This document shows positions 24,138 through 54,301 of a DNA stretch of 64,000 bases, in pieces (position 1 is the first letter of the stretch; each line of letters starts with the position of its first letter). Origin of the DNA: Pseudocercospora fijiensis CIRAD86 (Eukaryota > Ascomycota > Dothideomycetes > Mycosphaerellales > Mycosphaerellaceae); the NCBI RefSeq assembly GCF_000340215.1, contig NW_006921532.1:2831337-2895336 (forward strand), in the 5' to 3' direction. The translations under genes were made by a program, and so were the position numbers. The notes under the pieces were generated by a model. It was not told the origin of the DNA, did no database searches, and saw only the letters and a list, made by a program, of their open reading frames with translations.

Positions 24138-24147
24138 CTTCCAAAAA
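24138..24147. repeat. Left target-site duplication of the MULE
   Basis: CTTCCAAAAA directly precedes the left terminal inverted repeat and is repeated exactly at 42770-42779 directly after the right one. A 10-bp duplication fits the 8-11 bp duplications made by Mutator-like transposases. Confidence 0.85.
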
Positions 24148-24246
24148 CGGGTAAATACTCAAATGGGACACATTGGCATGGTAATTACACAAATGGGAAA
24201 ACCCTTACTCGGATAGGACACATTGGCAGTGGAACTACTCGGATGG
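24148..24246. repeat. Left terminal inverted repeat and subterminal repeats
   Basis: The first about 41 bp pair with 42729-42769. A motif close to ACATTGGCATRGTAATTAC followed by (T)CGGATGGGA or ACAAATGGGA occurs at about 24169-24197 and again, diverged, at about 24219-24246. Repeated subterminal motifs of this kind are usual binding sites for transposases; that role here is inferred. Confidence 0.75.
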
Positions 24247-24306
24247 TAAATTATTGGTACAGTATTTACTACTATAGGAATCCGCTCTGCTCTACTACTA
24301 TATCAA

Positions 24307-24782
24307 TTTCTATATTTATAGGACAAGCGTACATAAATGGAAACATACTGCGTAAAGGCAAACAGCATTAGGATTGGTAGCAGCAATTACAGGCGGCCTG
24401 TTCAGCGTCTTCTATAACCTTCTACTTATCTATCTTAGGTATAGCGGCAGTCGTTGCTATTTAAAGCTATATATCTATCTATACTATATCGAGTCGCATT
24501 TCTGTATCTATAGTAAGCGCCTACGAATATAGAAATGTAACTAATTCTATATCGTTAAACCCTATGCCTGCCTTTACTATTATATTATAGTAAAACTTAA
24601 TCGACTTGCTACCCTATAATCTTTTATTCTGCTATTATTAGTCGGTTAGTCGGTAAGGATAACTTTAGTTATATCTAGGTAGAATTTATATCGAACTATT
24701 GTCCGTAGGGTAACTTAGCTCGCCTAAGCAGAGCAACAATTTCTATATTCGTAGTAGCTGCTAGTAGATATAGAAATTCTAA
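24307..24782. repeat. 18-bp hairpin motif cluster, left
   Basis: Copies of a motif close to GAATTTCTATATTCGTAG. One single copy lies at about 24307-24324. Inverted pairs lie at about 24497-24537 (ATTTCTGTATCTATAG ... CTACGAATATAGAAAT) and about 24738-24780 (AATTTCTATATTCGTAG ... CTAGTAGATATAGAAATT). Arms are separated by about 7-8 bp. The same motif recurs at 26.6-26.9 kb and 31.9-32.7 kb within this MULE. Confidence 0.6.
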
Positions 24783-25450
24783 AAACACTTCACTTAAGTA
24801 GCCTTACTTCGGTACAGCCTAGAGCTAATTACGAGTGCCTAATCTAAGCGCAAGCCCTACCCTAACTCTTACTCTTACTTAAACAATAGAACAGTAGCTA
24901 GAAGGCTTTTACTGCTATATATCTTTCTCTCGTTTCTATCTTCGTCCTCTTCTTCCTTCCTTCTACTAGATATCGCACCTACTCTCTTACCCTCGTCTAT
25001 AATACTACCTTAAACATAAGAATTACGTTAACGGTATAGAAAGCAACAATAGGCGGCCCCTTCTTCTCCCCGACTAGTGCTAGTTACCCTTTCTTTAGCT
25101 AGGTATAATTAATTCCCTATTATTGCAAGTAGGAAAGCAATGTACTAATATGCCTTTAGAGCTCCGACGCCTATCGCCGCCGTACTAGCTGCCGCGCCGT
25201 CCTATAAGTTTACTAGTAGCAATATTAGCGAGTCTAGAAGGTATCCTAATTGCTCTATTCTAGTCGTCGCGCTGCCGCGCATTTAGCTACCGCCGCTACC
25301 GCTCGCCGCTCCGCTAATTCTACTTAGTTCCGTACTACGCTCCTGCTCCTACGTTAGCGCCGATAGCAGTAGTAGTAGTAGCAGTAGCAGTAGCAAGAAG
25401 AGTATAGTCTAAGCAGATTATTCGTAGAGCTTAGGTATACTAATAGTTTA
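24325..25450. other. MULE interior, non-coding as far as visible
   Basis: TA-rich, CA-poor DNA between the left terminus and the first recognisable coding trace. Apart from the hairpin motifs I see no frame with protein-like content. Confidence 0.4.
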
Positions 25451-25599
25451 CGTAGCGACTAAATAATAGTTAACGCTAGTAGTAACGACGAACTAGTCCT
25501 ATAAGTTTATTATTCCTTATGTCGATTGTCTAGCTTAGAGTTTAGTATTCTAACCTCGATCTATAGGTAGAACGACGACTATGTCGTACCGCCTTCTAG

Positions 25600-26307
25600 T
25601 AGCGAGGACGCTCCTATATATATTTAATTAATTAACTATCTAAGCATTATTATAAATATAGAGCTAACATCTGTATATAGTATCGACGACGACGACGACG
25701 ACGATAATAATAAGGCTGCGTCTATTATCTCTACTGCTCCTCCGCCCGCTACTACCCCTCCGCCTGCTACTACCGCTCTAACTTCCGCCCTATTCGTACC
25801 GATTATCGCGCCTCGCGAGGTACTAATTTTCCCGGGCAAGACCCTAGCCGACCGCGCTAGCGCTAGCGCTAGTACTAGCACTAGTAAGAAACGCGGCCGT
25901 CTAGCGAAAGCTAGTAAGAATGTCGTAGTACTTCGCTGCCTAATAGCGGTCGATTAATAGTAGTCGGTATCGGAGGGTAAGTAGCTTTGTATATTAAAAT
26001 TAGTATATGTATTATACTCGTACTAACAACGTCTTAGTAATAAAAGGCCGCTAGAAGATCTAGTCGCATATCGGCCGCATTATAGAGATCGCCGGCCGTA
26101 CTCGCCGCCGGCTATGTCTTAAGTATGTTCGGTCGGGCGTTAAGTGCCGCGAGTACGCTACCGATACCTTCGGCAAGCATCGCAAGTGTGCCTATTGCAT
26201 TTGGGCAAATAACCCTTATATAGATCCGCCTTGTTTATCGTCAGATAGCGAGGATAATAATAATAAGGATAATAATAATAAGGATAATAATAATAATAAT
26301 AATTAAG
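25600..26307 (+). pseudogene. Decayed cargo frame with acidic tract, Cys-rich segment and Asn-rich tail
   Basis: Plus-strand coding trace inside the MULE. An early part reads SIDDDDDDDNNKA (from a GAC repeat at 25681-25707) followed by a Pro/Thr/Ala-rich stretch and a basic stretch TSKKRGRLAKASK. The later part, in another frame, reads LCLKYVRSGVKCREYATDTF then GKHRKCAYCIWANNP and ends EDNNNKDNNNKDNNNNNN before a TAA at about 26305. The CxxC-type spacing after a basic run resembles Cys-rich proteins often found in fungal mobile elements, but I cannot name a family. The frame is broken by TAG codons and at least one frame change. Confidence 0.35.
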
Positions 26308-26649
26308 CGCTAGGTTCTTTGTTTGTTTCTTTGCTCTTTAGTCTTAGGCTTAGGCTTAGGTAGCTAGCGTTCGGTTCTTTGCTTGTTTCTTACTGTCTTA
26401 GTCTAGCTAGTTATAGGTTCTCGAGGCTGCCTCGTCGAAAGACGAGGTCGTAAGACCTTATAGCATATTATAGTAGCGCTGCTACGCTGTTTTAAATGAA
26501 AGTTCATTTGTTTACTATTTAGCGCTAGCCGCCGTTGCTGCCGATCCTCGTAACTCTATTCCTTTTATAATGCAATAGTATTTACGTCTTTTGCTACGGT
26601 TAGTTATTATACGCGGTATTATTGTATATCTAAGCTAGGCCTATTCGTT

Positions 26650-26936
26650 TGAATTTCTGTATTTAGTAAGCTATATACCCGCTAGTGCCCGCATCTCTTA
26701 ACTAATAGCGAATTTCTATATCCGTAGGACGGTAACGCTCGGCTTGTATTCCTAGACCCGTAGCTATTAATTCGATGCCGCTACCGCTTAGACTAGCAGT
26801 TATTATGCTAGGTAGTTATCTTAATCTCGGCAAACGGCTACCCGTAATCTAGCTACTCGCTATCCGAGGTTAATGCCGACGATATACGTAGGTATTTCTA
26901 TATTTATAGTATACTTACTACGGATACAGAAATTCC
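26650..26936. repeat. 18-bp hairpin motif cluster, middle
   Basis: Two same-strand copies (GAATTTCTGTATTTAG at about 26651 and GAATTTCTATATCCGTAG at about 26709) and one inverted pair at about 26892-26935 (TATTTCTATATTTATAG ... CTACGGATACAGAAATTCC). Confidence 0.55.
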
Positions 26937-26959
26937 GTATACGTCGTTACTATTGCCTA

Positions 26960-28440
26960 AGCGATACTACGCTAGTAGCCCTTTAACTATTCCCTCCTCG
27001 AACTCCTATATCTACGCTAGCTGTCTTCGCGACAGTCCGAATATCGGTTCGCTAAAACCGCTCTTCTAGACATGCCTTATCGCTAAAGAGGGCAGTACCG
27101 CGGTATTCGTCGTTAGTAAGGAAGATATTTATCTCGGTAGTAAGCGCGAGTTGTGTAGCCTGCCCTTCCTATTCCTTATATAGGAAGCTATAGGCGTCCT
27201 TTGTAATACATTGTCGCCGCTTAGTGCGTATAGTTTAGGTGTCGGTCGAGGGTAGCTATATAGGATATTGCTTATATACGCTAGTTATCCTAACACTAAG
27301 ACGACCTATAAACTTATAGATATTGCTATATACCTCCTCGATATTGCCTACCTTCGAGTACATGTCCTATTCGTCTAGCTTATATAATTTATATATATCG
27401 TCGGAGTTCGCGCGAAGAGGCCCTACTATTATGTCGGTAAATGCTCTTTGAAACAATAATGCTTCCTCGTCCTCGGTCGGCTCGATAGATTAGTAACTAG
27501 ATTCTGCCTTGTATTAGATATTCCGTACCTATATAACCGTACGGCCTACGTTAGGAAAACAACCGAGAACCGCAAGCTAGCTTAATACTATACTACTATT
27601 TAGGTTAACTTAGATCGAGATTAACCCTCTCCGGATCCTCTCTATATAGACTAGTAGAGCGACGTCTTTACGTATTATATCGTTATATAGATACGAGAAC
27701 TCTTCTATCGTAGTCTTCTTAACGATACGCGTACCGTATTTCTGTCCTTATACCGACTTTGCCTTCCCGGATATATAGGCTATAATAAAGTACTCTAGCT
27801 ATAATCTAATACTTACGCTCGGTAAGTCGAGTCGCCGCTATACTAAGTTCGCTACCTAGTCTGCTATCGTTTAATTATAGATTCGCTCTTCTTCCTCTTC
27901 CTCTTCTTAAGCCCGGCGTTCTTCTATAGAGGTTCGTTCTCCTACGGATATTCGTTCTTTAGCGAGGCGGGCTTCTTTGCGGGCTTATATTCTAGCCTCC
28001 GACTTGGCTATCTTTGTATCTGTATTAGCATCTTCTTATAGCCTCTTAGCTAGTTCCTTCTTAATTAGTAGTTTATTAGCTTCGGCCTTCTATTGCTACG
28101 TAACGCCTGCTTTCTTCTCTACCTACGTTAGCCTAGTAAACTTATCCTCTATAGTAAAGCCGAGTCTCCGCTCGTTGTCCGTAATTGCCTTGCTAGCATC
28201 CTCGACTATATAATAACATCTCCGACTTCGAGGGGCTGCTTAGATAGTAGTATTCTTTTGTTATTGCTATACTATTGCTACGCGAGTCGTAGCAGATGTC
28301 TTTATCCGTTTAGCTAGACTTCTACTAGATATATCTGCCTTTCGCTTCTTCGTAGTATTCTACTAGCGGACCGTTAAGTATCTAGTTAGCTTCTTCCTAG
28401 TAGTAGTATAGAACTTGTCTATTATAGCGACCGACCTCTA
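26960..28440 (-). pseudogene. MULE accessory ORF, coiled-coil protein of unknown function
   Basis: Minus-strand trace downstream of the transposase. It is readable for about 490 codons if TAG is taken as former CAG/TGG. The N-terminal part is basic (DKFYTTTRKKLTRYLTVR, KKRKADISSRSLAKRIK). The middle is a long charged helix of the type KAEANKLLIKKELAKRL ... ARKEARLAKERISVGERTSIEERR with a Glu run. The C-terminal part (KKTTIEEFSYLYNDIIRKDV, then DDIYKLYKLDE and NIEEVYSNIYKFIGRLSVRI) looks like a folded domain. I recognise no family. It could be a second transposition protein of the MULE or a separate captured gene. Confidence 0.4.
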
Positions 28441-28499
28441 CTAGGTAGTAGCTATCTAGCTAACACCCGATCGTGCTATACTAGACTCTACTATCTCCC

Positions 28500-30990
28500 G
28501 TGCTAACGTAGTCGCCGCTTGTTCGCTCTACCGACGGACTTTGTCGAATTGCTTGCTAGTAGACTTACGGGCCTTTGTAGCGGCCGCTTAGTTAAGCCTT
28601 TTCTAGCGTTTATTCGCTTTGGCCGTCGCTCTGTCTATATCGGCCTATATCGGAGGTATACCTTTACTAATAGAGACACTAGATTCGGCTTACTAGAGGG
28701 CTTTAGCTATAAAGCGATCGCGGTACGCCTCTATCTCCCGAGCGGTTATAGCCTTAAACTGCTTTAGTGCACGTCTTGTAAACATTGTATCGTCGTCTAA
28801 GAAGTACTCTTTATCCGCGCTAGCATCTTATCTAAGTTCCTTACGCGCCTAGCGGTTAGCATTGCTTATATTAACTTCCTTTCGGTGCCGCTATACGTAG
28901 AATCCTACTCTATTATATATAACAGATTGCTCGAAACTAGACAGCCGCGATATTTTATATCGGATACTGTCCCTATCGCTCTTGTTACTACTCGATAGTT
29001 TACCTACGCGATCGGTGTCGTCGTCTTCTTCTTCTTCTTCTTCTTCTTTATCGCTGCTATCGCTACTCTAGTCCGACTCGATAATATATAGCCTACCTTC
29101 GTAGTTAGTCTGCCGACGTTTAGGTTATTTGCCTTTCTGCTTCCGTTTACGTTTGTCGACGATAGGATACTCGTCGGTCCTTCGTCGTACGTAGGTCTTC
29201 TTTATATAGCCTATACTATTAAGCCTATGCTCTTTGCAGATAGAATATGTCTTTAGAGCTCCGGCTTTCCTACTTTTAGACCTTAGCTTACGCTTCTTAC
29301 GCTTACGAGCCTTCTTAGGTCGACCCTTAGTCTTTACGAGTAGTAGTAGTTTAGTAATGCCGTCGACTAAGATCTAGTCGTATATTATCGGGTACAAGGT
29401 GCCTAAGTAGCTTTCAATGTACGACGCCTAACTATACGCTTTATTAATATAATCCTCTAGGTCGTTTAAGATTAAAGGCTCGTTCTTAAAGTAGCGGATA
29501 GCGATATACGTATGTTCGTACGGCATCCGTATATCCTAGAATACCCTATAGCTATATATTCGTAAGTTAAGATCTATAATGTAAGACTCCTTCGATGCGC
29601 TACTCTTAATTACTGCCTTACTAGCTAACGTTAGTAAACAATTCCACCCAGCCCGCGATTTATATAGGTATCGCTACTATTCTTCTTTGTAGTAGTCTAA
29701 CTAGCGAATAGACCGGAAGACACGCCGCCGCCTTTCGTAATTTTTAATTATTAGTCTCTCCTACATTGTTTAATAACACTAGAATATAGGCAGTTCGCGT
29801 TCTACTAGGAATTTGTTATTTATAGACTTAGAATTGTTCGAGGTTAAGTAGCTAAACCGAGGGTATTCGTCTAGTAGGGCGTAATATATTGTCTATCGAG
29901 AGGTATTAATGCTTTCGAAGTATAGCTCTAGTTCTATATCCTCCCTAGCCCTATTCTTACGCTTCTCCTATAGTATTTCGTATAGCATTACTAACTTCTT
30001 AGCCTTAAAAGGAATCTCCGTTGCAATAGTAGCGAGATAGCGGATAGCATTTGCAATCGCAGGGCCGAAATACTCTTCGAAATTCTTAGCGAGATGTTGT
30101 ATACAGTAGTAGTAATGCACACGACGCCTACTATATACCTTAGTTACTATAGGAACTAAGCCTTTCTACCGATCGCTAACTAGAGCCCGGTATTCTATAG
30201 CAGATATTTCGCCTATTAGTAGCAGCTGTTCCTTAAGATGCTTAAGAAACTAGGACTAGGATTCCTCTAACTCTAAACGTGTATAGCACTATGCTATAAT
30301 ATATACTTAATTCTTAGTATTAATGCTAGCGATAATAAGGATAACGCTACTATATATACCGGACATATAGCTACTATCGAGAGTGAGCAACCTACGTAGA
30401 TATCGAAAACTACGTAGACGCGCATATAGGAATATAGTAGATACCTAATGCCGATCCTCGTAGTTAGTATATAATACGTAGAAAGCACTAGTATATATAT
30501 TATCTAACCCTTGTGTTTTGTCTAATGCGTTAAACAGTAGACTAATCTTCTACTACGACTCTTTCTCCGAGCTAACAAGTTTATCTAAACACCGTCTCTT
30601 TACCCGGTATGCTTGTATATAGGTAATCTTATTTAGATACTAGTTCTATTCGGCACGCCGGAGTTGATTTAGTACGAGTCGCTAGTCGGCAGCGACGGCG
30701 TCGATATAGTGTTCGAAGAGTACACCTACTCTATAGCCTCTCGGGTTATAGTAGTATATTGCTAGAGAGCATTCGTATTCCTTAAGGACGAATACCTAGA
30801 CCTCCTTTCTATCGTTACTATTCCTATTACGGCGGAGTAGGACTTTAAATATGCATTAACTTTGCCTATCTATACCGATCGTTTAGTATTAGCGATTAGT
30901 TAGATAGACATACTCTTTGCGGTTTAGCTTAGATAATCTCGCAAATGAAGTCTAACCTTTCTCTATTATATACCGGTCGAATGCCTTAAC
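28500..30990 (-). pseudogene. MULE transposase, inactivated
   Basis: Decayed Mutator-like transposase. Landmarks, N- to C-terminal: LFNALDKTQGLDNIYTSAFY (about 30.5 kb); LTLDSSYMSGIYSSVILIIA with the first catalytic-type Asp (about 30.4 kb); ESEE-like LELEES followed by FLKHLKEQLLLIGEISAIEY; ALVSDR-KGLVPIVTKVYSRR with the second Asp; HYYYCIQHLAKNFEEYFGPA (about 30.1 kb); then a long helical part, a basic RPKKARKRKKRKLRSKSRK stretch followed by a Cys/His-type remnant TYSICKEHRLNSIGYIKK (about 29.2 kb); and an acidic tail with nine Glu and DDD. The order matches the MULE domain followed by a zinc-binding end. Stops in the frame are TAG, and several His positions read Tyr, as CpA-to-TpA change would cause. 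Confidence 0.75.
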
Positions 30991-31149
30991 TATAGTCTAT
31001 ATATCCGGATAGCATTAGCCTTAGACAAGTTTAGGAGGAGCCGAGCCTACGAGTGTCGATAGTATAGGCATAGTTAGCTGTATTATAGTATATAAATAAA
31101 GTCGTCTAGCTGTATAGTTAATAGCTGTCGTATTTGTTGCATTGTCGTA

Positions 31150-31910
31150 ATAGTAACGAAGCGTATAGAGGACGCGACGTAGTTATTTAACACGTTTAAC
31201 GTAGAATTAGGTAAGAATTAACCTAGGTCTTAGCGAGCCCGCTACTCTATCTCCTCCCTCGTGTTCGTATCTACTATACGACGACCCTAGCAATAATATA
31301 ACTAACGATGCGTCGAAGGTTATATCGGCGGTATCTAGGTATATAATTATAACGCCGGAGCTACTACTATAGGCCGAGCTTAGCGACTTCTATCTAGTAC
31401 TACTATTAGCACTATTCTGCCTTAACGCGGTATTTCCGGACTAGATATATGCTATAGACGCACTCTACCGAGACGTAATTAGCGTATAGGAACATAGGGA
31501 GGCATTTATTGCGCTATACTAGACAGGTCTTATCCGGAGATTTGTATACAAATTAGACTCCGACTATACGATAAATATTATCCTTATAAAGCAAGAAGAC
31601 GGCGTCCGGGTCGTCCATTTTATAGATTACTCTTATACGGCGGTAGCAGCGAGTCCTCGATACCCTTAATTCGCACCTAGTGCGGTATACGCTAATATAA
31701 TTTAGGTATATAATGCCTTTATTTATTAGGTTATGCTTCCGAAGGGGTAGGCGAACACGACGTCGACTTACGATATAGCACCGCGGAGTATTCTATTACA
31801 TCTAAAGCTTAAATGTAGCCGATCGAAGGACTATATATTTCGTATTATTATCCGGTATTAATACGAATACGAAGGGGGAGGTGCGAAAGTCCGATAGTTT
31901 ATAGAGCATA
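31150..31910 (+). pseudogene. Unassigned decayed frame on the plus strand of the MULE
   Basis: Upstream of and divergent from the transposase. With TAG read as former Gln/Trp it gives a plausible globular protein, for example AELSDFYLVLLLALFCLNAV, then EHREAFIALY-TGLIRRFVYK, IINIILIKQEDGVRVVHFID-type blocks and APRSILLHLKLKCSRSKDYI. No family recognised. Either cargo or a second element gene. Confidence 0.3.
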
Positions 31911-31950
31911 TATATAGAGTCTAAGGGTTATATAAGTAGGCGAGGTGTGT

Positions 31951-32672
31951 TCGAATTTCTATATTCTTAGAGAGTCGCTAAGAATATAGAAATTCAAAGC
32001 TCGACGTAATACTTAGTATAGCCTTATACTTAGCATCGTTACGTTACATCCTATTATCGAAGCACTATGATACCGAGATACGACTATCGTACGGAGCGAT
32101 ACCGATACCCTCCCTCCTATCTTCGAATACAAACTAACACCGGCGGTCGTTCTCGTATTAATTACTTTTGCTAGCGCCGCTTTAATATTATACGCTTAAT
32201 CGTATAATCTCCGCTATTACGACGAGAGCGTAGACGACACAACCGATTATTGCAGTAGCAAAGTAATATACGTCTAGGCGATCTAAGAGGGAGAGGGAGA
32301 GCATCGTATATTCGGCAGTGCCTATAAAGAGTAGTATATGTTTCGGCAAGAGTAGCATATATTTAGTAGTAAACTACGACCTGCAATCTATACTAGTAGA
32401 CCTACGCGGCATAGAAAGCTAGGACATAGGATACCGGTAGCGAAGATAGTATATACTATAAATATAGAAAATTATAATTAGTCGAGGAACGCGGGAACTA
32501 GCGGGTATTACGCTTATAGAATACAGAAATTCAATCGACTAACCCTTAACCTTAACGACTAAGTATAGTACCGACCGGCGAACGATATAACTTCTCGATA
32601 GGCTCGCAATATCGCTATTAAACACGGAATTTGTATATTAATAGAGCCGGACTACGGATATAGAAATTCAGC
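31951..32672. repeat. 18-bp hairpin motif cluster, right
   Basis: The cleanest copy is an 18+18 bp perfect inverted pair at about 31953-31995: GAATTTCTATATTCTTAG, spacer AGAGTCG, then CTAAGAATATAGAAATTC. Further single copies in the minus orientation lie at about 32510-32534 and 32650-32671. Confidence 0.65.
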
Positions 32673-33224
32673 TTTCGATAGCCCTACTTTGTCGATAGGT
32701 AGGGGTTTAATACAGCATTCCTTCTAGTAGTCGGCACGATACGAACTCTTATTAAATAGCCTATATAAGGCATAGAAGGGCGCACGCCCCGAGTAGAGCC
32801 GGTTACTAGGGAGTGATTATTATTATATACGGAGGTAAAGTCTATGCTAATTAAGTACTACTATTATTAGCTAGGCGGATACAATCACTTCGGTATAACC
32901 CTAGTAATATATAGATCTAATAAACTATAGAATACCTAACGAAGCTACCGAAGTGCAAATTCGTACCTACTCTTCTACCCGATCGTCTTCCGGTACGACC
33001 TTGCTTAGCAGCAGTATCTACTCTTCTACCTAAATGTCTACCGGTACGGCCTTACTTAGTAGTAGCATCTACTCTTCTACCTAAACGTCTACTCTTCCGG
33101 TACGGCCTAGCTAAGTAGTAGCATCTACCCTTCTACCTACTTCTTCTTAGTTTAATCCTTATAATACCTTTACTCTTAACTTTTAGACTTAACTAAGTAG
33201 CGTAAACCCTCGCTCGCTACTAAT
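32673..33224. other. MULE interior up to the nested retrotransposon
   Basis: Contains a short locally repeated stretch at about 32960-33140 in which TACCTACTCTTCTACC-like units recur with CGGTACG(G/A)CCTT, about 60 bp apart. No coding trace seen. Confidence 0.35.
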
Positions 33225-34590
33225 TGTAAGAAGGGTTATGTTAGCAGGTAGATAGGGTAGTAGTAGGTATAGGTAGTATTCGATAGAGATCTAAGAGGAG
33301 AGGGAGGAAGGCAGGCTAGTTGGCCTAACGCCAAGCGCTAAGCCCTGCCTAAGGCACTAAGACCCTAGCTTCACTCGGCCTAATTACATGCCAATCACAT
33401 GTAGCCTCTTTGGCTCTAATATACGCTTCCCTTCTAAAGGCCGCGCCCTCGTAGCCTATCTATGTCCCTATCTAATCTCTATTGCCGCTAACTTAGCAGG
33501 TCTAGTAAGCTGCTTAGCCTACGCTAAATTGAACACTTAACTACCGATTATGTAACTATATTAAACCTCACTTCTAATACAACGTGCAACTCCAACTGCG
33601 CCATTCTTATATATAATAAAGTAATATATATCTACGAGAATTGAGGGCCTTCGACTAATTACAATACGAGCGCGTCTTCCCTACTATAATAGGTAGACGT
33701 ACGAGGTATTGCAGCCCTACCTCCGCTCTAAGTAATGTCGTACCGAGTTCTCTACGTCTACTCTAAAAGACCTAGAAATGTCCGCTCCGAGGGTTTGTCC
33801 GTTCCGAGGGTTGTTCTTATTGTTCGTAGTTTCGCTAGCCCTAATTAGCTAGGTTTAGTAGCCTTTAAGTGTCAATCTTATCTTATCTTTTCAAAAAACA
33901 TAGCTCGTCTAGTTTCTATAGATAAAGGCTATTATAAGTGCAGTAGTAGAGGTTCGCCTCGCTTAAAGGGTTAGATAGATCGAGGAGTAACCTATTGTCC
34001 GCAAGATCGACCCCGGCTAGCTTAGCTCTATAGTTTTGCCCTTAGTTAGTCTATTAGTCGCTTAATCTTTTAACTTAGTCAAAGTTTTGACTTAGCCTCA
34101 AAGTTTTGATTAAACCTTTAACAGGCTTAAGCTTTGATTAAAGTTTTAATTAAAGGTGCCTTAGGCTCGTAGTGTAGGTAAGGTTGTGTCTGCAGGCGTA
34201 GCGACAACAGTAAGTAATGTTAACAATAGTAGCGCTAGTCGTCTTAGCGCTAACTTTACCTCCTTTAACTAATAACAACTCGGCAATACCGTTACTAACA
34301 TAGCGGTGTCCTTCCTTTCTTAAACAATAATATACCCCGCAACACTGTTACTAATATAGCCGCGCCGGCTACGCCGATTGCCTAGGCCTTAAGGCCTCGA
34401 CGGAATGAGGAAACAAGAGGGGGACCTATAGGGCGCGTTAGTAAAGAGGTAGAATCCTTAAAAGAGTAGGCAATTAGTTAACGCGTCGTAGCGCGCTTAT
34501 TGATACTCGGTGCGCGTTTACTATAGTAGTATAGTCTTATTGTCCTTTGTTGCTAACAATTGCTTGCTTCTAATTAGTTAGCTAATAGTA
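33225..34590 (-). repeat. 3' LTR of the nested Gypsy element
   Basis: Begins with a GTAAGAAGGGTTATGTTAGC motif that is shared by all four LTR copies in the window, and ends near GTTAGCTAATAGTA. It matches the inverse of 41251-42550 along its length, the first about 200 bp match 40133-40335, and the first about 940 bp match 49627-50564. Exact termini are uncertain because of mutation. Confidence 0.7.
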
Positions 34591-34639
34591 CCCTAGGGGT
34601 AGTATTGATCCTAGGCCTTAGTAGTAACATTATAAGCTT

Positions 34640-34810
34640 TTAGCCTTCTTCTTGTTCTTTACGCTAGTCTAATACTTATCTAACAACTCGGTTATATCCT
34701 CAAAGGAGTCTTTAGCTTCCTATAAGTCCCATTCTAGTGAATAGCCTTACTATCTTAGTAGGTACTCCTTCTTGCCTTGCCTAGTCCGGTGCTTTAGGAT
34801 ACGTTCTATA
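34640..34810 (-). pseudogene. Chromodomain at the integrase C-terminus (Gypsy copy 1)
   Basis: Minus-strand reading gives ERILKHRTRQGKKEYLLR followed by two TAG (expected W-K/W) then GYSLEWDL-EAKDSFEDITEL, the usual chromodomain layout (aromatic cage positions at the lost Trp codons). Chromodomains on integrases steer insertion to methylated histone H3 lysine 9 chromatin. Confidence 0.7.
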
Positions 34811-34899
34811 GACTATAGCTCTTCACTATCCGCTAGTATGTCTTCGTATTTAGTAGGGGCTTTATCCCCCTCGCGTAGGTAATATAGCTTAAGGAGGGA

Positions 34900-36950
34900 T
34901 ATATAGAAGGTATTATAGATAGTGTAATAAGGAGGAAGCTACAACTAATAGGCCTACGCGAAGGAGCCCTTAACTTCTCGAATGCGGAATAGACTAATGT
35001 ATCTTAGTACGAGCTTAGGCCTTGTTTTTCCGTTAGGTAATAGGTGTTTGCGGATACGGAGGTTCTTAGTGCTCAGTATAACTATATCGCCTTACTTAAA
35101 AGTTATTAGTGTATAGTGTTTGTTATAGTAGGCCTTCTAATATACCTAGGCCTTTGCTAGTTTGTTAGCTAACTTAGCGTAAATCTCTCGCATCTTTTAA
35201 ACCCTCTTAATAGCCGCTAGTATTTCGGGTACTTAACGCGCTTCCCTTTCCTTACGCTCGGCCTCGAGCGATAGGGGGTCTTATAGCATAGTAGCGTTCT
35301 AACCTATTATAGCTATATATAGCGAAACCTTAGTAGATAAGTATACACTATTGTTGTATACGAATTCTGTAGGCTGTAGGAGGTTGACCTAGTCGTTAGG
35401 GTTCTCGTTGATATAACTGCGTAGGTACTGCTACAGGGTGGCATTCTGCCTCTCTGTTTAACCGTCAGTCTGTAGATAGAAGGCTATTAATAGCCGATGC
35501 TTTAGTCTCAGCTGTAGGCATATCTCGCTCTAATAATAGGATGTGAATATCGTGCCCCGGTTAGAGACTATCCCCTTAGGGGTCCCCTAATAGGTATAGA
35601 AGATGTTGCTCTATAGAGCCTCTGCTATGTTAATAGCAGTCTAATCCTTCCGTGCCGGGATATATCGAGCGCCTTTAGTAAACCGATCTACTACAATAAG
35701 GATAGCATTAAAGATGTCCTTGCTGCCCCTGCGTTTAGTAGGTAGAAGGCCTATAATAAAGTCTATTATAAGCTCTATAAATGGCTTATAAGGGATTGGT
35801 AATAAGGACAACTCGCTAAAAGGCTAATGTTTTAGTACCTTAACACGTTAATACACGGCACACGTGTTAACGTATTCCTTTATATCCCGCTTACTATTTA
35901 GCTAGTAGTATGTGCGCGATAGTAGCTCGTACGACCTCTCTATACTATAGTAACCGGCAAGCTTACTATTATAGTGTCGCTTAAGAAGCTCTTGTCGGAT
36001 CGAATATTTAGCGGGGATATAGTATCTGCCCTTAAACTTTAAATGACCTTTATTATCGATCGACTAATTGTTACTCTTACTAGATCGAGTCTTTCGCCTA
36101 CTTATAAGCTTGTCGATACGTTCAGTAGCAAAGGCGTCCCTCTACTAAGCCCGTAATAGCTCATCTATAAACGATTAACTATCCCTATTTGCAAGGTTAT
36201 TTAATAGCACCCTCGCTATTAAACGAGGTACGTATTATATGCATCTAATAGCACTAGCAGCCGGATTAACTACATTAGTGCTATCGCTGTTACTATATAT
36301 TGCGATATCGACTAGGGAGTTATTATAACTTCTCCTATCTATGTCCTTAGCCCTTGCCTTAATACGCACTATTAATACAGCAAGAGCATTAATATGCTTT
36401 AAGCCGTCGCGGAGTCCGGTAAGCCGCTTATCCTACGCTTGCTTATTAATAACACGGGCTATAGCGATCTTATACTGCAGGGTTAGAAACAAAGAATTAA
36501 TATGTTAGGTTTCGCTGTCGTAATTAGGTCGCCTCGATAGGCTATCGGTAGGGTTACTTATGCCTAGCCGGTATAATACATCAAAATCGAACCCGGCGAG
36601 GTAGACGGCCTATCTAGCCTATCGACCTATAACCCTAGTAACCTTAGTAATGCCACGGAGGTTGTTATAGTCTATATAGACCTGTATTGTATATTAAGCC
36701 CTATCGAGGTAGTGCCTCTAATACTTAAAGGCCTCGACAATAGCTAGCAGCTCTTACTCGTAGGTTTCGTAGCGACGCTTAGCGTTAATTATCTTCCTCG
36801 AGAAGAAGGCAATCGGGTGCTAGTAATTGTTATTAGCCTGTTGTAATATAATAGCTGATATAGCAAACTGTAAAGCGTTAGTCTCAATGCGGATCTGTTT
36901 GCTTAGTACGAAATAGTGCAACAAGGGGACTTTAGTAAAGCGCCGCTTCA
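34900..36950 (-). pseudogene. Integrase and RNase H region (Gypsy copy 1), inactivated
   Basis: Minus-strand traces of the integrase core and its zinc-binding part occupy about 34.9-36.2 kb and RNase H about 36.5-36.95 kb, deduced from order between the chromodomain and the reverse transcriptase and from scattered motif-like stretches. The 3' part of the integrase (from about 35305 downwards) is repeated in inverse orientation at 40646 onwards. Confidence 0.5.
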
Positions 36951-37149
36951 AACCGTCAAAAGCGGCTTGTGCTCTGTTAGTCTATTTAAACTCTCTAGTC
37001 GGGTTAGCCTTGGTTTTGGTGAGCTCAGTTAGTAGCATTATATGCCTCGAATAGCCCTTAATAAATCGGCGATAGAAGTTAGCAAAACCGAGGAACGACT
37101 ATAGCTCCTTAATTAACGTAGGAACAGGCTATTTAGTAATAGTTTTGAT

Positions 37150-37900
37150 CCGATTAGGATCAGCCCTAACACCCTTAGTTGATATAAGGAAGCTAAGGAA
37201 TAACACCTCTTTAGTAGCAAAGGTGCATTTAGAAGGCTTGCAATATAAGCTATAGGTTCTTAGACGATCGAGCACCTTACGGACTGTAGCCTAGTGCTCC
37301 GCAATGTCGGGTAAGTGTATATAAACTAGGATGTTATCTAGGTAAACTATACAGAGGTAATCCAATAGGCCTAATAGGGCCCGATTAATGTAGGACTAGA
37401 ATGTAGCGGGGGCATTAGCTAGCCTAAATAGCATAACTAAGTACTTAAAATGGCTATAACGAGTGCGAAAGGCTGTCTTCTATTCATCGCCCTTACGGAT
37501 GCGGATGCGATAGTATGCATCCTTAATGTCTAATATAGTGTAGTAGTAGGCACTAGAAAGGCGATCGAGAGTCTTATTAATAAGCGGAAGTAGATAGCGG
37601 TCTTTAATAGTAACAGCATTAAGTCTACGGTAATTAACACATAGGCGCAGGCTACTATCCTTCTTTAGTACGAATAGGATAGGGGCACTAGCAGGGCTGT
37701 TACTATACCGTATCCGGCTATTAGCTAGGTTTTCCTCTAGATACTTACGCAATATAGCAAGCTCTCGTTCACTAAGGTTGTAGAGGGGGCTAAAAGGAAC
37801 CTCTTTGCCCTCTATAATATTAATCTTATAATCCGTCTCTTTGAATATAGGCAATGTCGATGCTAAGTAGTGTTTAAATACATTAATATAGGTCTCTCGA
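37150..37900 (-). pseudogene. Reverse transcriptase (Gypsy copy 1), inactivated
   Basis: An open stretch at 37480-37854 encodes the N-terminal RT part: [60 protein letters not shown] and [15 protein letters not shown]. After a TAG it continues with KTAFRTRYSHFKYLVM and a YLDD box changed to YLDN (GAT to AAT, a RIP-type G-to-A). This is a standard Ty3/Gypsy RT. Confidence 0.85.
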
Positions 37901-38112
37901 ATAGGCTCTAGTATGCGAGCAAGCTAATTAGGGTCTATGCTATTAGGGGGCATAGGTTTATCGTTATTACTACCGAGCAGGTCGGCAGTTAGATCAGCTA
38001 AGGCGGAGGCTAGTGTTAGGTTGCCAATAAACAGGACTCTAATATCGTTAGGACACTCGCTAATATCGATATGTTTAATGTCCTCCTTCCTAGCGATTCT
38101 AAATCGCCATTG

Positions 38113-38493
38113 TTAACTGCCTAAGTCTATAACTATAGCATAGTACTTAAGAACAGGGTTACTAATAATAATGTCGGATAGGAGGCTGTCTATGTCTACC
38201 GCGTAGGCAGTAAAGTTCAGTAGGCGTTTATTTCCGAGGTCGTCTTTTAGAACTATAGGAACATAGTAGGCCCTATAGGTTAAGTGCCGAGCGTTATTAA
38301 ACCAAGCAAGGGTTGGCAGGTTAGTCTTCGGCAGTTGTCGAAGGTCTAATTGCTTAGCTAAGCGATAGTTAATAAGGGCGCTAACTGAATTTCCGGGGTC
38401 TAGTATAACCTTTGCCTTATAGTTAGTATCGCGCCTAGATATAAGACAGGTACGTATAATAGCTAGCACAATGTCGATAGTCTTACGCCGCAT
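38113..38493 (-). pseudogene. Retropepsin-like protease (Gypsy copy 1)
   Basis: Minus-strand frame with the active-site region KVILDPGNSVSALINYRLAK. The usual D-T/S-G triad reads D-P-G, and the flanking hydrophobic beta-strands and the later LLSDIIISNPVL block fit the retroviral-type aspartic protease fold. Confidence 0.65.
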
Positions 38494-38599
38494 AAGGCTA
38501 ACAGTTAGTGCGGCGCTTATTCTTTTTTCGAATAGTTAGAAGGGCTAATAGGGGTAGTATTAGCGGCTAAGAGGTGCTTTCGGTATTTAGCGGCAGCAC

Positions 38600-39900
38600 G
38601 GTCGACTCGGGCCTAGTCTCGAGGCCTATTATATTAGCCTAGTAAATAAGTGGTGCTGTCACAATTGAAGCACTTGTATCTAGTTAGGGCACCGCTAGGT
38701 CCGCTCGAATTGGTACTAGAATTAGATAAACGATTAGGGGTATATAGAAATAAGCCCCTTCCTTGTCCTCTTCCTCGCTAGGGGTTTCTACCGCGGTATC
38801 GGCCCCTGCCTCTTCTACGTTAGTCGTTACTGTTTCCATTGTTAGCAGTGTTAGTTTAGGGAGTACCTCCTTAGTTTCTACCGTAGCTACGGTTAGCAGA
38901 TAGTCGTATCTTAGATTCCAACCGTTGCTATAGCTATACTATACGCTCTATAGTCTCTACTTTAACTATGAATTGAATGCGTATAAGATTGGCCTGTTCG
39001 AATACACGGCGGCGGTCCAATTCAAGGACTAGTTCCTATCTTAGTTTAGGTCGTATCTCAGATATCTAGATAGAGTCGGTCTTAGGTAGCAAATCGTCTT
39101 TAAGGGTCTTTAGATAGGCCTCGAAGGATCGAGAGGTTTAGTCGGCCTTTTGCTTAGCACGTAGGTATTAGTCTTAGGCGTGCTGCTAGCGTAATATAGG
39201 GTTGCTAAGGGTGTTTAGTATAATAGTCTTGTAATCCTGCTATTAAACAGCGGTCTAGTCGTAAAGGGAATTAAAATAGTCATCCTATATACGCTTAGGG
39301 TCGCTATTAATATACTATATAGCGTATACGACTAAGGAATAGTCGTCTAGTAGCGCTCTTAGTGCGTTGCGCTAGTTAAGCTTACAGTTACGAATATAGT
39401 CGTTGTACTGCTTTCGGCTAGAGCTATTAAATACGGTGCAGTCCTTAAGTTTAGCATCCTTCTTCTAGACTAGGACTAATAGTGAGGAAGGCCCTACTGT
39501 CGGCTTAGTGTTAGTTGTTAGGGCCTCCTAAAGGCGGCGAATTTCGAGGAGGTTGTCCTTTAGCTGTTATTCTTAACGTAGAGCAGCGAGCCTGTTTTAG
39601 GTAGCTTCTTGAAGTCTCGCTACTAGCTAGGGGCTAAAGGCTAGTTAGCTATATCGTCGATTGACAATGTTGTTAAGAATGTCGTTAATAGGCAATTCTG
39701 GATCGTCGCCTAGAACTATAGGTTCTTCGGCAGGCCTAGTAGCAGGCTCTTTAGCAGGTACTTTAGCAGGTGCTTTAGTAGGCACTTTAGCAGGTACTGT
39801 GCTACTAGCGTTGTTATTGCTAGCGCTGCTAGCGGCAGCACGGTTGTTATTGCTTCGTAATAAACCGGCTATCGTAATAAGGGGTAGCACTAATAATATA
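38600..39900 (-). pseudogene. Gag region with zinc-knuckle remnant (Gypsy copy 1)
   Basis: Minus-strand trace. A CCHC remnant reads YKCFNCDSTTYLLG near 38.67 kb, with His changed to Tyr. The N-terminal end at 39645-39890 has a KVPTKAPAKVPAKEPATRP repeat and LGDDPELPINDILNNI. Between them the frame is broken by TAG codons. Confidence 0.6.
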
Positions 39901-40132
39901 TTGCGGCCCCTTATAGTACGGATATAGCGGAATTAGCGAGTATCGGCCTAATGTGCTTAACTTAGTGTAATAGGCCGTATAGAAGGCCTTGCTTAATAAT
40001 TAGTACGGTTGTTTTAGTAGAATAGTACGTATAGGTCCCGTTCTTCGGGCGTAATATAGTTAAATCGATGGTTTTTCGTAGCTATACCGCTAAAAGCTTA
40101 AAATAAGGACTATCTAGCTGCTGCCCTTAAAG

Positions 40133-40335
40133 GGTGGATCGAATACTGTATAAGAAGGGTTATCTTAGTAGGTAGATAGGGTGGTAGTAGGTACAGGTAG
40201 TATTCGATAGAGATCTAAGAGGAGAGGGAGGAAGGCAGGCTAGTTAGCCTAACGCTAAGCGCCAAGCCCTGCCTAAGGCACTAAGACCCTAGCTTCACTT
40301 GGCCTAATCACATGCCAATTACATATAGCCTCTTT
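40133..40335 (-). repeat. Truncated 5' LTR of Gypsy copy 1
   Basis: Begins TGTATAAGAAGGGTTATCTT and matches the start of the LTR at 33225 for about 200 bp, then breaks off after TAGCTCTAA. What follows is unrelated, so the LTR was cut by deletion, recombination or another insertion. Confidence 0.65.
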
Positions 40336-40620
40336 AGCTCTAACACTAATACTTGTCTACATATCGAAGACACTGTATTCTTTTATAGCAATAGAAGCTA
40401 CTATAACCGCTACCCGACCTCGTATACGCCGATAATAGAGATTATCGACCTTACTTCTAATATAGAAGACGAATTACTATCGAAAGTTCTTAATACCTTT
40501 AATAGCAATAGCTCGGAAGTGCGTAGATATACGTTAACTATAGACGGCGCAGCTTTAGCTTTAGCTCAACTCTATAGACGGGTTAGGTCTATATTCCACC
40601 GCCGCGGCAACGATAAGTAA
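40312..40620 (+). CDS. Unassigned 102-codon frame between Gypsy fragments
   Basis: An ATG frame that overlaps the broken LTR end. From about 40340 it reads as a plausible protein (SSNTNTCLHIEDTVFFYSNR, PIIEIIDLTSNIEDELLSKV, GAALALAQLYRRVRSIFHRR) and has no TAG breaks. It may be a fragment of a captured or retroelement-associated gene. No family recognised. Confidence 0.25.
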   Translation: MPITYSLFSSNTNTCLHIEDTVFFYSNRSYYNRYPTSYTPIIEIIDLTSNIEDELLSKVLNTFNSNSSEVRRYTLTIDGAALALAQLYRRVRSIFHRRGNDK

Positions 40621-40645
40621 ACAAATACATACACGTATAAATAAA

Positions 40646-42550
40646 CGGGCTAGAACGCTGCTATACTATAAGACCTACTGTCGCTCGAGGCCGAGCGTAA
40701 GGAAAGGGAAGCGCGTCAAGTCCCTAAAACACTAGCGGCTATTAAGAGGGTTTAAAAGATGCGTGAAATCTATACTAAGATAGCCGAGAAGTTGACAAAG
40801 GCTTAAGAATACTAGAAGGCCTACTATAACAAGCACTATACGCTAATAACCTTTAAACAAGGTAACATAGTTATACTTAGTACTAAGAACCTCCGTATCC
40901 GCAAACACCTATTACCTAATAGCAAAACAAGGCCTAAGCTCGTACTAAGATACATTAGCCTATTCCGTATCCGAGAACCGAAGGGTATATAGGCCTATTA
41001 GTTATAGCTTCTACCCTATTATACTATCTATAACACCTTCTATATATCCCTCCTTAAGCTATACTATTAACGCGAAGGCGATAAAGCGCCTACTAAGTTA
41101 GAAGAAGTCTTAGCTAATAGTAAAGAACTATAGTCTGTAGAACGTATCCTATAGCACCGGACTAGGAAAGGCAAGAAGGAGTACCTCCTAAGATAGCAAG
41201 GCTATTTACTAGAATAGGACTTATAGGTAGGAACAATGCTACCCCTAGGGTGCTATTAGCTAACTAATTAGAAACAAGCAATTATTAGTAACAAAGGACA
41301 ATAAGACTACACTACTATAGTAAACGCGTACCGAGTGCTAACTAGCGCGCTATAGCGCACTAACTAATCGCATACTCTTTTACGGAATCCACCTCTTTAC
41401 TAATGCGCCCTGCAAGGCCTTCTCTTAGCACTCGGGTCCTCCTCTTATTCCTTTATTCTATCGAGGCCTCGAGGCCTAGGCAATTAGCGCGGCCGGCGCG
41501 GCTATATTAGTAACGGTGTTGCGGAGTATATTGCTATTTAAGAAAGGAAGGACACAGCTATGTTAGTAACGGTGTTGCCGAGTTATTATTAGTTAAAGAA
41601 GGAAATTAGAAGAAGGTAAAGTTAGCGCTAAGACGACTAGCGCCGCTATTATCGACATTACCTACTCGCTGCTATTACTAACCTTACCTGCACTACGAGC
41701 CTAAGGCACTATACTAACTAAGTTAAAAGATTGAACCTGTTAAAGGTTTGATTAAAACTTTAAGGCTAAGTCAAAACTTTAAGCCGCCTAAAGATTATAC
41801 GACTAATAGACTAACTAAAGGCAAAAACTATAGAGCTAAGCTAGCCGGGGTCGATCTTGCGGATAATAGGTTACTCCTCGATCTATCTAACCCTTTAAGC
41901 GAGGCGAACCTCTACTACTGCACTTATAATAGCCTTTACCTATAGAAACTAGACGAGCTGTGTTTTTTTAAAAAGATATAATTAGTTAATACTTAAAGGC
42001 TGCTAAACCTAACTAATTGGGGCTAGTAAAACTACGAATAGTAATAGTTCTTATAATAATAAGAACAACCCTCGGAACGGATAAACCCTCGGAACGGACA
42101 TTGCTAGGTCTTTTAGGAGTAGACGTAAAGAACTCGGTACGACATTACTTAGAACGGAGGCAGGGCTACAATACCTCGTACGTCTACCTATTATAGTAGG
42201 GAAGACGCGCTCGTATTGTAATTAGTCGATAGCCCTTAATTCCTATAGCTTTATATCCCTTTACTTTATTATATACAAGGATAGCGCAGTTAGAGTTAGA
42301 CATTGTATTAGAAGGTAAGGTTTAACATAGTTACATAATTAGGTAGTTAAGTGTTTAATTTAGCGCGGGCTAAGCGGCTTATTAGACCTACTAAGTTAGT
42401 AGCAATAGAGGTTGAGATTAGAATAAAGACCGGCTACGAGGGCGCGGCCTTTAGAAGGGAAGCGTATATTAGGACTAAAGAGGTTACACGTAATTAGTAT
42501 ATAACTAGACTACTACCCTATCTACCTACTAATATAACCCTTCTTATATA
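40646..42550 (+). mobile_element. 3' fragment of a second Gypsy copy, opposite orientation
   Basis: Plus-strand copy of the integrase C-terminus, the chromodomain region and a complete-looking LTR (about 41251-42550, ending CTACCTACTAATATAACC and CTTCTTATATA). It matches the inverse of 33225-35305, so the two copies form a large inverted repeat about 5.3 kb apart. Divergence is mostly C/T and G/A, as RIP would leave. Confidence 0.75.
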
Positions 42551-42601
42551 GAACTTGTCCTAATCGATTTCCTACGGTTTCTAAACGGAAATAGCACATT
42601 C

Positions 42602-42769
42602 CTATCTAAGTAATTACTATGCTAATGTTTACTATCTAAGTAATTTCTATGCCAATGTATATACCAATGTCCCGAAATTTTCCCATTTGCGAAATGCCAG
42701 CTAATGTTGCTAATCCAGTCCCATCCGAGTAATTACTATGCCAATGTGTCCCATTTGAGTATTTACCCG
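42602..42769. repeat. Right terminal inverted repeat and subterminal motif array
   Basis: The outermost 41 bp (42729-42769) are inverse to 24148-24188. Three copies of the motif whose plus-strand form is (C)TAAGTAATTACTATGCTAAT or CGAGTAATTACTATGCCAAT lie at about 42602-42628, 42631-42658 and 42720-42747. The inner two have the more TA-rich, RIP-like form. Confidence 0.75.
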
Positions 42770-42779
42770 CTTCCAAAAA
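42770..42779. repeat. Right target-site duplication of the MULE
   Basis: CTTCCAAAAA, identical to 24138-24147. Confidence 0.85.
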
Positions 42780-42945: not shown

Positions 42946-45248
42946 ATGTCTACGGCGACTGAGGCTAGTAACAAGGAGAAGACAGCGCAGAAGAGTACAC
43001 GGACCAAGACTGGATGGTAAGTGAATACAACTAGACGTGATAGGCTGATCAAACAGCTTTCACATGCCAAACTAACAATTTTGCTGACTCAGACGAATTG
43101 CGCAGTCAGAATTGTCGATTGAGGCATTTGAAGTGTGATGAGCAGGGCCCGCTTGCGTGAGATGCGAACAGGCTGGGGTATGAGAGCGGGAGCATATCAT
43201 TCACGCCTTTGCTGAGCTTTTCGAAAGATCGAATGCGTTCGTGGTTACAATATTCGATTCAGACATGGAGCGAACCCATCAGTGGCCAACACTCAAGGGA
43301 GTGGTGATGCAAAGAACGACTATGACTTTAAAAAGTCTCAGACTCGGGTGAAGACTGCCAGGACTTTGACATTCCTGGACGAGACGCAAGAGCTCATTAA
43401 CATCTACGACCACAATTCAGACGAGGACAACCCGAACCCGACTCCATTTAAATGGCCGCAGCTCTCTCCAGCATCACAGTCAGTCGACCAGCAGCCTTCT
43501 CTCGAAAGAACGCAATCTGCACGTGCATCGGCATCAGAGCCACCAACGCAGCCTTCGCCAGCCAACCATCAGAACTTTGCACGTCCGTCGCCGGCGAGTA
43601 CCCAGGCATTTGCAAATGATGGTTTTACCCGGTCAGGGGCGAGGCGCGTTGAGAAGCATTCTCAGCCCAGTGGGTCGCCTGCTAGTCAGGCATTTTCGGA
43701 TCGTGTGGCAGAAGCTTCTGAAGCACTTGCGGCCAAGCGAAGAAGATTCACATTTGAAAGCTCATACCACAGCTCGAGGACATCGGAAAGCCCAAGGAAT
43801 CTGGTCCGTCCACCTGCTGAAAGCTGGCACACAGGATGCACGCCCAACACCTCGATCGATGGTGTCACCTCGAATGCTGATATCGAGTTGGCAGAGTATA
43901 CTGGATTAAAAAAGACAGTAAGAAGCTCCTTGTCAAGGATATATCTCGACACTCCAGTATGGCCACTGCAGGACAAAGAAGAAGCAAGATTGCTAAGGCA
44001 TTTCGTCGAGAACCTGTCTCGAAATTTCAATCTCACAGACCCACTACGACATTTCCGCCGCGTGGTGCCTCAGCGAGCAGCGATTTGTCCAACACTGATG
44101 AATGCCATTTTCGCTCTCTCAGCCCGGCATCTTAGTAGAGTCGGAGATTACGATCCACTGATCTCGAACAAGCACCATCAAGAGTGCCTGAAGCATCTCA
44201 ATCCTATGCTCGACGACACAGATGCCATCTTGGATGAGAACTTACTCGCATCAACAATCATCTTGCGGCACCTTGAAGTGTACGAAGTGCCCTTGTCAGG
44301 CCAAGTTCCAGCAGACCAACACAGCCATCTTCTCGGCGCCCAAGCAGTTATCGCAGCACAAGAACGAGCCGCAATCACCGGCGGACTTCGACAAGCAGCT
44401 TTCTGGGTTGTACTGCGACAAGAAGTGTACGTCGCATTCGTGAACCAGAGATCAATCCTCCCGGCTCTAGAACATCGCAACATCGACCGATCCTTCGAAG
44501 CAGCAGAGGAGCACATCTGGTAAATAAATCGTCCCCAATTTACCTTCCACCCCACCTCCCGAGTACTAAGCACCTTCCAGGGCCTGCCGCATGGTCGTCC
44601 TCTGCGCCGACACAATCCGTTTCTGCTTCTCCGACACCCCACAAACAATCGCAAACTACACATACATCTCCTCGCAAGTCTCCCAATGGCACACCTCCCA
44701 TCCTTTCACCTTCACACCAATCTACATCAACCCACCCACCCACCCGCCCACCAACTCCTAACAAATTTTCCCCGAAATCTGGTTCACAGGCGACGAATAC
44801 GCCACAGGAATCCAATGCCACCATCTCGCCCGAATCCTCCTCTCATCCTACAACCCTTCAATCCCACGTCTCGATCCAGGCCGCGCAGCTGCTTTGAGAG
44901 AAATGGACGAGCAAATCAAACATCATGTCAAAGTCCTTTGTGGTATGGCGAGGAGTAGTCCGGCCAGCTGCTTTGAGAGAAATGGACGAGGAAATCAAAC
45001 ATCATGTCAGGGCGCTTTGTGGTATGGCGAGGAGTAGTCCGGCCAATGCTCCGGCGTTCACGTATGCGAGTATGGCTGTCACTATGGCTGGGGATAAGTT
45101 TAGTGAGAGGGCTGAGCAGGAGGCTTTGATTGATGTGCTGGAGGAGTGTGATCGCATGCATGCTTGGCCTACGGAAATGGCGGTGAGTAATTTGAAGAGT
45201 GCTTGGGGTTGGGACTCGGAGGAGGGGAGGAATGGGAACGGAGGGTGA
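42946..45248 (+). pseudogene. Zn(II)2Cys6 transcription factor, broken in three places
   Basis: Exons: 42946-43016, 43106-43177, 43228-44519 and 44581-45248, with introns of 89, 50 and 61 bp, all GT...AG. Exon 1 starts MSTATEASNK and ends in RTKTGC across the splice. Exon 2 supplies C-QNC-RLRHLKCDEQGP, then ACVRCEQAG only after a frame change at about 43149. Exon 3 continues IECVRGYNIRFRHG. Together these give a normal six-Cys cluster with one missing base. The later part has the fungal TF regulatory-domain motifs (EEHIWACRMVVLCADTIRF, FPEIWFTGDEY, KHHVKVLCGMARSS, LKSAWGW). A TAA at 44759 stops the frame (CAA expected), and a 79-bp tandem duplication at about 44887-45044 shifts it again. It was a nuclear DNA-binding regulator of unknown target. 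Sequencing error could explain one break, not all three easily. Confidence 0.75.
44887..45044. repeat. 79-bp tandem duplication inside the transcription factor
   Basis: AGCTGCTTTGAGAGAAATGG starts at 44887 and again at 44966. The two units differ at only a few positions. Since 79 is not a multiple of three, the frame changes across the duplication; the C-terminal WGW end is in frame only with the second copy. Confidence 0.9.
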
Positions 45249-50564: not shown

Positions 50565-50689
50565 TGTTATACAAGGGACGATTAGTAGGTTAGCTATAGT
50601 ATAGTATTAGGGTAAGTATCTACGGTTCTACGGAAAGTATATACTAGGCTTAGCTAGCGTACCGTCCCTACCGTAATAGTACCTCCGTC

Positions 50690-54060: not shown

Positions 54061-54239
54061 GTTAGTATTGTATTAAGTTTGTTATATATATAGCAGCTAA
54101 AAATTTTTAGGGCGTTACTAGGGCGTTCTACTTTATTATAACGCAAACTTTACCTCGTCTACGCTACGCCGTTTACCTATATAGTACGGCCCGTCGGATT
54201 AGAGTAACAATAGGGGAAAAACAATAAAGTAAACTATTT

Positions 54240-54301
54240 GCGTTTCAAAAATAAAGTAAAGTAAGGTGCGATTTAAAATAAGGTAAAGTAGGGTGCGATT
54301 T
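54240..54301. repeat. Two-copy 27-28 bp tandem repeat
   Basis: AAATAAAGTAAAGTAAGGTG then CGATTT is followed at once by AAAATAAGGTAAAGTAGGGT then GCGATTT. A related partial unit (AATAAAGTAAACTATTTGCG) precedes it. Located between the long unassigned frame and the chromodomain of the next retroelement, possibly in a long terminal repeat. Confidence 0.6.

Follow-up and report, generated by a model that had tools for sequence, protein, structure and literature searches.

The segment between positions 24148 and 42769 of a 64,000-nucleotide stretch of the Pseudocercospora fijiensis CIRAD86 genome (RefSeq assembly GCF_000340215.1, contig NW_006921532.1, positions 2,831,337 to 2,895,336; hereafter the window, numbered from its first letter) is read here, with a probability of about 0.93, as a DNA transposon of the Mutator superfamily (Mutator-like element, MULE) of about 11.5 kb, which was mutated by a process like repeat-induced point mutation (RIP) and later received a Ty3/gypsy long terminal repeat (LTR) retrotransposon. 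The assignment to this superfamily is based on a target-site duplication (TSD) of 9-10 bp, terminal inverted repeats (TIRs) shared between copies, a DDE transposase with the MULE domain PF10551, which scores below its cut-off, and a catalytic motif placed by eye. The element is genuine and a dead relic, ordinary in kind and unusual in its size and flipped interiors, and all copies examined carry mutations. Together the copies form an oversized family that is new within a known superfamily.

Table 1. Features of the element and its surroundings in the window
Feature	Positions	Strand	Details
Left TSD CTTCCAAAAA	24138-24147	no strand	window sequence, family comparison
Left TIR	24148-24201	+	two more TIR-like units just inside
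Block 1	24740-26532	no strand	conserved between three subfamilies; weak, shifting three-base periodicity
MULE transposase remnant	27046-31065	-	1,340 codons; 48 TAG, 22 TAA and 0 TGA in frame
MULE transposase domain PF10551	30082-30387	-	positions 2-99 of 99, with TAG as W and TAA as Q
Gene 2 remnant	31307-32029	+	about 240 codons, divergent from the transposase
Retrotransposon TSD CTAAT, left	33220-33224	no strand	comparison with copy C4a
Nested Ty3/gypsy LTR retrotransposon	33225-40345	-	7,121 bp; LTRs, domain matches, empty site in C4a
Retrotransposon TSD CTAAT, right	40346-40350	no strand	comparison with copy C4a
Older truncated gypsy fragment	40648-42551 (approx.)	+	Tf2-1-like SH3 and weak chromodomain match
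Right TIR	42716-42769	-	more TIR-like units just inside
Right TSD CTTCCAAAAA	42770-42779	no strand	window sequence, family comparison
Open reading frame on the other side of the element	43216-44523		named as a transcription factor in the preliminary description

Borders, copies and insertion history

The sequence CTTCCAAAAA occurs only twice in the window when both strands are searched, and directly inside its two occurrences lie TIRs with a core of 41 bp, made up of 32 identical bases, one mismatch and 8 identical bases. Their similarity continues to about 54 bp at 91%, and the span from TIR to TIR is 18,622 bp. A preliminary description of this DNA had reported 10-bp direct repeats and TIRs of about 41 bp with one mismatch, and both were confirmed at the places given there. 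It had also proposed an inverse-paired search for the terminal bases across the assembly. The genome (73.9 Mb, 30 contigs) was searched in this way, the counts from the end searches being lower bounds; the matches fell into pairs, and further copies of the paired ends were found. Fifteen end pairs were fetched, namely twelve long copies (11.3-45.1 kb) and three short ones (640, 595 and 491 bp), with the window copy as W. The same ends and a 9-10-bp duplication were present in all fifteen. Read from the printed flanks, with C17 and C5 taken without the shift preferred by the script, nine duplications were exact (10 bp in W, C2a, C8a, C9, C18, C8b and C10; 9 bp in C4a and C1b) and six were imperfect: C13, C4b, C2b, C17 and C8m differ at one position and C5 at two, in every case by CA/TA or TG/TA. 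The 8-bp ends CGGGTAAA...TTTACCCG were exact at both sides in 13 of the 15 copies; C8m has a mutated left end and C5 a mutated right end. A sixteenth end pair on C21, of about 50.6 kb, is known from search matches alone, and unpaired end matches were found at C7, at C2 near 8.18 Mb and at C10 near 2.043 Mb.

A 2-kb internal probe (28500-30500) matched 13 places in 14 pieces, each within one of 13 long end pairs. Internal DNA without the ends, which the preliminary description had set against its own proposal, was thus found at none of the 13 probe places in this genome, the ends of C21 being known as stated above. The three short copies appear to be internally deleted or similar to miniature inverted-repeat transposable elements. 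The duplications of W and of C9 (CTTCCAAATA) are nearly alike, perhaps by target preference or by chance. The insertion site of C2a is the stop codon of a host frame that is open over at least 165 codons, and the C2a duplication AATTTTAATC includes the TAA.

Empty sites were sought by joining the flanks with one copy of the duplication and searching the same genome, for three of the fifteen copies (C18, C10 and the window copy). Of the 40 listed matches to the joined flanks of C18, 39 span the join (83-87% identity) and the remaining one is its own left flank (40 of 56 candidates were scored). C18 is inserted in a repeat whose empty versions exist. This host is a dispersed repeat, with many listed copies close to the ends of contigs, perhaps in subtelomeric DNA.

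A second empty site dates the DNA nested inside the window copy. In an alignment with C4a (11,553 bp), the window copy matches on either flank of a 7,121-bp stretch that C4a lacks, and the CTAAT which flanks this insertion twice in the window is single in C4a, where the empty site of the retrotransposon is preserved. The inserted DNA belongs to the Ty3/gypsy group: its LTRs begin with TG and end with CA, measure about 197 bp and are 93.8% identical over 193 bp, the TSD is 5 bp long, and the minus strand carries matches to reverse transcriptase, RNase H, an integrase zinc-binding domain and a Tf2-1-like SH3 domain in the Ty3/gypsy order, the integrase being represented by its zinc-binding domain match only. 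The gypsy fragment near the right end is older than this insertion because it is common to the window copy and C4a. The preliminary description had seen one insertion event of almost 19 kb, part of it nested later. The single insertion with its 10-bp duplication and the nesting both stand, and the size has to be corrected: because 33225-40345 is a later LTR retrotransposon, the original insertion was about 11.5 kb and not about 19 kb, the older gypsy fragment included.

The element lies about 450 bp downstream of the reading frame of leucyl-tRNA synthetase (LeuRS). The identity of this neighbor, as first described, is upheld by 97% identity to the LeuRS of Pseudocercospora musae in a protein database clustered at 90%. 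A cut-and-paste MULE of about 11.5 kb most probably inserted downstream of LeuRS. By analogy with the superfamily, a DDE transposase would have bound the TIRs and inserted the element at a staggered cut, giving rise to the observed 10-bp duplication. The Ty3/gypsy insertion into the window copy came later, as the empty site in C4a shows.

Coding remnants and alternative readings

The long copies form three subfamilies. Subfamily A consists of the window copy, C4a and C13, subfamily B of C2a, C4b, C1b and C9, with C21 placed here by its 83% probe identity, and subfamily C of C8a, C8b, C18, C2b and C5. Identity is 94-96% in the compared pairs within a subfamily and about 65-82% in the conserved blocks between subfamilies. 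Along C8b 4685-9698 the non-RIP differences between subfamilies concentrate on one codon position, except at 5400-5700, which is the gap between the transposase gene and a second gene (gene 2). In the single transposase frame of about 1,340 codons the bias falls on the third position. The transposase frame of C8b is present in all twelve long copies, C8b itself counted, with C2b and C4b in pieces, and the main matching pieces in subfamilies A and B are 54-58% identical to it. The absence of TGA from the window frame is in itself no evidence for coding because TGA is also scarce (0-2) in each of the five remaining frames.

The domain PF10551 was matched in all three subfamily representatives (E 1.3e-4, 4.7e-4 and 1.3e-4, all below the cut-off), and the window match has E 1.3e-4 and 22.7 bits. 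A DUF1800 match, which appeared in two of the three transposase representatives (E 5e-4 and 3.8e-3) below its own cut-off, was taken as noise. A profile of the transposase was built from ten of the twelve long copies, with C9 and C2b omitted because fetched pieces or an insertion break up their frame. Of the 7,990 candidates scored with this profile, a single protein reached E <= 0.01. It is a Vicia villosa MULE protein (E 4.9e-9), and profile comparison with this protein gave 98% probability over 486 columns. The catalytic motif of MULE transposases comprises two Asp, one Glu and a CxxH. In a register set by eye, Asp 230, Asp 298, CxxH 321-324 and residue 413 face the Asp, Asp, CxxH and Glu of the plant protein. 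Asp 298 is kept in all ten aligned copies, Asp 230 in seven (Asn in three), Glu 413 in seven (Lys in three, including the window copy), Cys 321 in one (Tyr in nine) and His 324 in six (Tyr in four). The MULE transposase remnant reported in the preliminary description is real but weak, and its PF10551 match depends on taking TAG for W and TAA for Q.

The extra reading frame mentioned in the same description was recovered as the remnant of gene 2, which is present in all twelve long copies (in pieces in C13). No Pfam family was found for gene 2. A resemblance of gene 2 to the transposase N-terminus is visible by eye only, and no relation is claimed. Block 1 gave no convincing Pfam match either; five weak matches in one frame (E 0.006-0.071) fell under their cut-offs.

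Several results weigh against the assignment to the Mutator superfamily or against the proposed insertion. The PF10551 matches score below the curated Pfam cut-off (22.7 against 27.6 bits for the window) and need the altered reading of TAG and TAA. Six-frame Pfam scans with stops as X gave no MULE match and nothing above cut-off, only two unrelated weak matches (E 0.026 and 0.075). A protein database search with the C8b frame as a single sequence yielded no homologue among 6,426 scored candidates. In the empty-site searches of this genome, made for three of the fifteen copies, neither C10 nor the window copy gave a match of its joined flanks beyond its own two flanks, and the joined window flanks revealed no empty LeuRS allele.

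The alternatives fare considerably worse. If the repeats were a chance arrangement or an assembly artefact, the identical structure would hardly stand at all fifteen fetched places, spread over 10 contigs; this reading has no finding in its favor, is refuted and keeps practically no probability, and chance is excluded for the borders because the same ends and 9-10-bp duplication recur in every fetched copy. It has also to be asked whether the ends were moved in trans around captured host DNA, as in a non-autonomous or cargo-carrying MULE with an interior of up to 50 kb. The copies of 45 and about 50.6 kb would suit this, and the three deleted copies of 491-640 bp, which lack the transposase, make movement in trans possible. 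However, the transposase core is present in all 13 long copies, and C9, C1b, C2b and C4b are RIP-like in every 1-kb window, with a single frame of at least 150 codons that lies inside the C9 transposase; the extra length of these four holds LTR-type direct repeats. Host-gene cargo was looked for and rejected, none being seen in these four of the five longest other copies (C21 was outside the sample). We consider captured cargo very unlikely. Even less credit is given to another class of large mobile element that resembles a MULE only at its ends, although the size of the segment would fit such a class. Starships are recognized by their captain, a DUF3435 tyrosine recombinase. The Pfam scans of the segment list neither a DUF3435 recombinase nor a Polinton polymerase, with the reservation that RIP could hide weak domains, and both the MULE domain and the duplication of 9-10 bp are as expected for a member of the Mutator superfamily.

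Flipped interiors and RIP-like mutation

The subfamilies differ in the direction of their interiors relative to the ends. With the ends as reference, the transposase unit faces the left end in A and the right end in B and C, and block 1 is inverted in B relative to its collinear arrangement in A and C. Each of 18 ends (nine copies) has two to four TIR-like units, in opposite orientation on the two sides, as counted by loose matching with up to 6 errors and no chance control. The end similarity between C13 and C2a stops at about 130 bp on the left and about 180 bp on the right, close to the innermost TIR-like units. The interiors were most likely flipped by recombination between oppositely oriented TIR-like units near both ends. 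MULEs with multiple TIRs are reported from plants (PMC3310237). It is possible, if rather doubtful, that the copies represent a lineage of their own among fungal MULEs, oversized (about 11-14.5 kb when nested DNA is left out), with a transposase frame of unusual length and a divergent partner gene, and with an interior that flips via arrays of TIR-like units, so that the orientation of the transposase is not fixed within the family.

The copies bear the marks of RIP-like mutation. In the interior at 24148-33226 the TA/AT ratio is 1.72 and (CA+TG)/(AC+GT) is 0.38, as compared to 0.68 and 1.29 in 1-24137. Strict CA/TA or TG/TA differences make up 46.5-82% of the substitutions in eleven within-subfamily pairs, with 6-126 transversions per pair. 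The trinucleotide counts are CCA 8, TCA 18, ACA 142 and GCA 201 in 24300-33219, CCA 10, TCA 12, ACA 142 and GCA 235 in 47001-64000, and CCA 884, TCA 835, ACA 697 and GCA 979 in the genic stretch 1-24000. Depletion of pyrimidine-C-A is thus far above that of purine-C-A, with odds ratios of 0.074 (24300-33219) and 0.057 (47001-64000) against the genic stretch; the nested retrotransposon has a weaker bias (CCA 32, TCA 55, ACA 167, GCA 182). RIP here strongly prefers pyrimidine-C-A. The region 47001-64000 is itself a 17-kb, strongly RIP-like and AT-richer island to the right of a genic stretch at 43-47 kb. After insertion the copies were mutated from CA to TA by a RIP-like process, which closed the reading frames; the pattern is plain and RIP is its probable agent. 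A preference of RIP for CA is reported in PMC8016269, and no mention of a 5' pyrimidine was found in the parts of PMC8016269 and PMC10234303 available to us, which is no proof that it is unreported.

This preference has a visible effect on the codons. TGG survives once in the ten transposase sequences, and TGG codons are nearly always TAG, because the RIP-like depletion hits pyrimidine-C-A. A changed genetic code with TAG as tryptophan was considered and rejected: TGG is rare in every frame alongside other pyrimidine-C-A sites, and TAA stops are frequent too. The terminal 150 bp of the copies (24148-24297 and 42620-42769 in the window) keep CA/TG beside an un-RIPed unique flank and lose CA/TG beside a RIPed flank. 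Over 30 ends the correlation between end and flank is 0.58 (Spearman, p 0.0007), and over the 24 long-copy ends it is 0.56 (p 0.004), sister copies not being fully independent.

Relation to known elements and meaning

MULE duplications are 8-11 bp long, and fungal groups have one or two open reading frames (PMC6446971). A close parallel is Mutyl of Yarrowia lipolytica (PMC6446971), a fungal MULE with a TSD of 9-10 bp, a short TIR (22 bp) and two reading frames, the second of which encodes a protein beside the transposase. In contrast to Mutyl, the elements described here have TIRs of 41-54 bp and a length of about 11-14.5 kb, and no relation of gene 2 to MutB is established. The Verticillium elements VdMULE1-3 and the Hop group are ascomycete MULEs with a PF10551 transposase as well (PMC3441728, PMC6446971), whereas VdMULE1-3 measure only 3.4-3.6 kb and have TIRs of 73-86 bp (PMC3441728). 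No close sequence relation between these elements and ours was detectable by profile and single-sequence protein searches. Five complete Mutator elements with RIP indices of 2.03 and 0.36 have been reported from Mycosphaerella fijiensis (PMC3562529). They resemble our element in their Mutator type and RIP mutation, and the four insertion sites (7-9 bp) given in that paper are absent from the fifteen duplications found here. The Vicia villosa protein (LOC131640331) carries PF10551, PF03108 and PF04434 and has its catalytic positions in register. It differs in that identity is 22% over 38% of the query, its length is 895 aa against about 1,340, and the long C-terminal part of our transposase is unmatched in the aligned columns. 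A paper on giant transposons (PMC6431247) mentions no fungal MULE in the material covered, and the open-licence literature, which was covered in part, yielded no fungal MULE of comparable size and make.

Domain-based annotation of a RIP-active fungus can miss a long MULE family: no place in this element was among the 150 of 247 candidates scored in a genome-wide PF10551 scan and the domain is matched only with stops read as W and Q. The insertions beside LeuRS are now defined and ordered. The matched copies also serve as a set for studying RIP, both for its trinucleotide context and for its fading toward unique flanking DNA.

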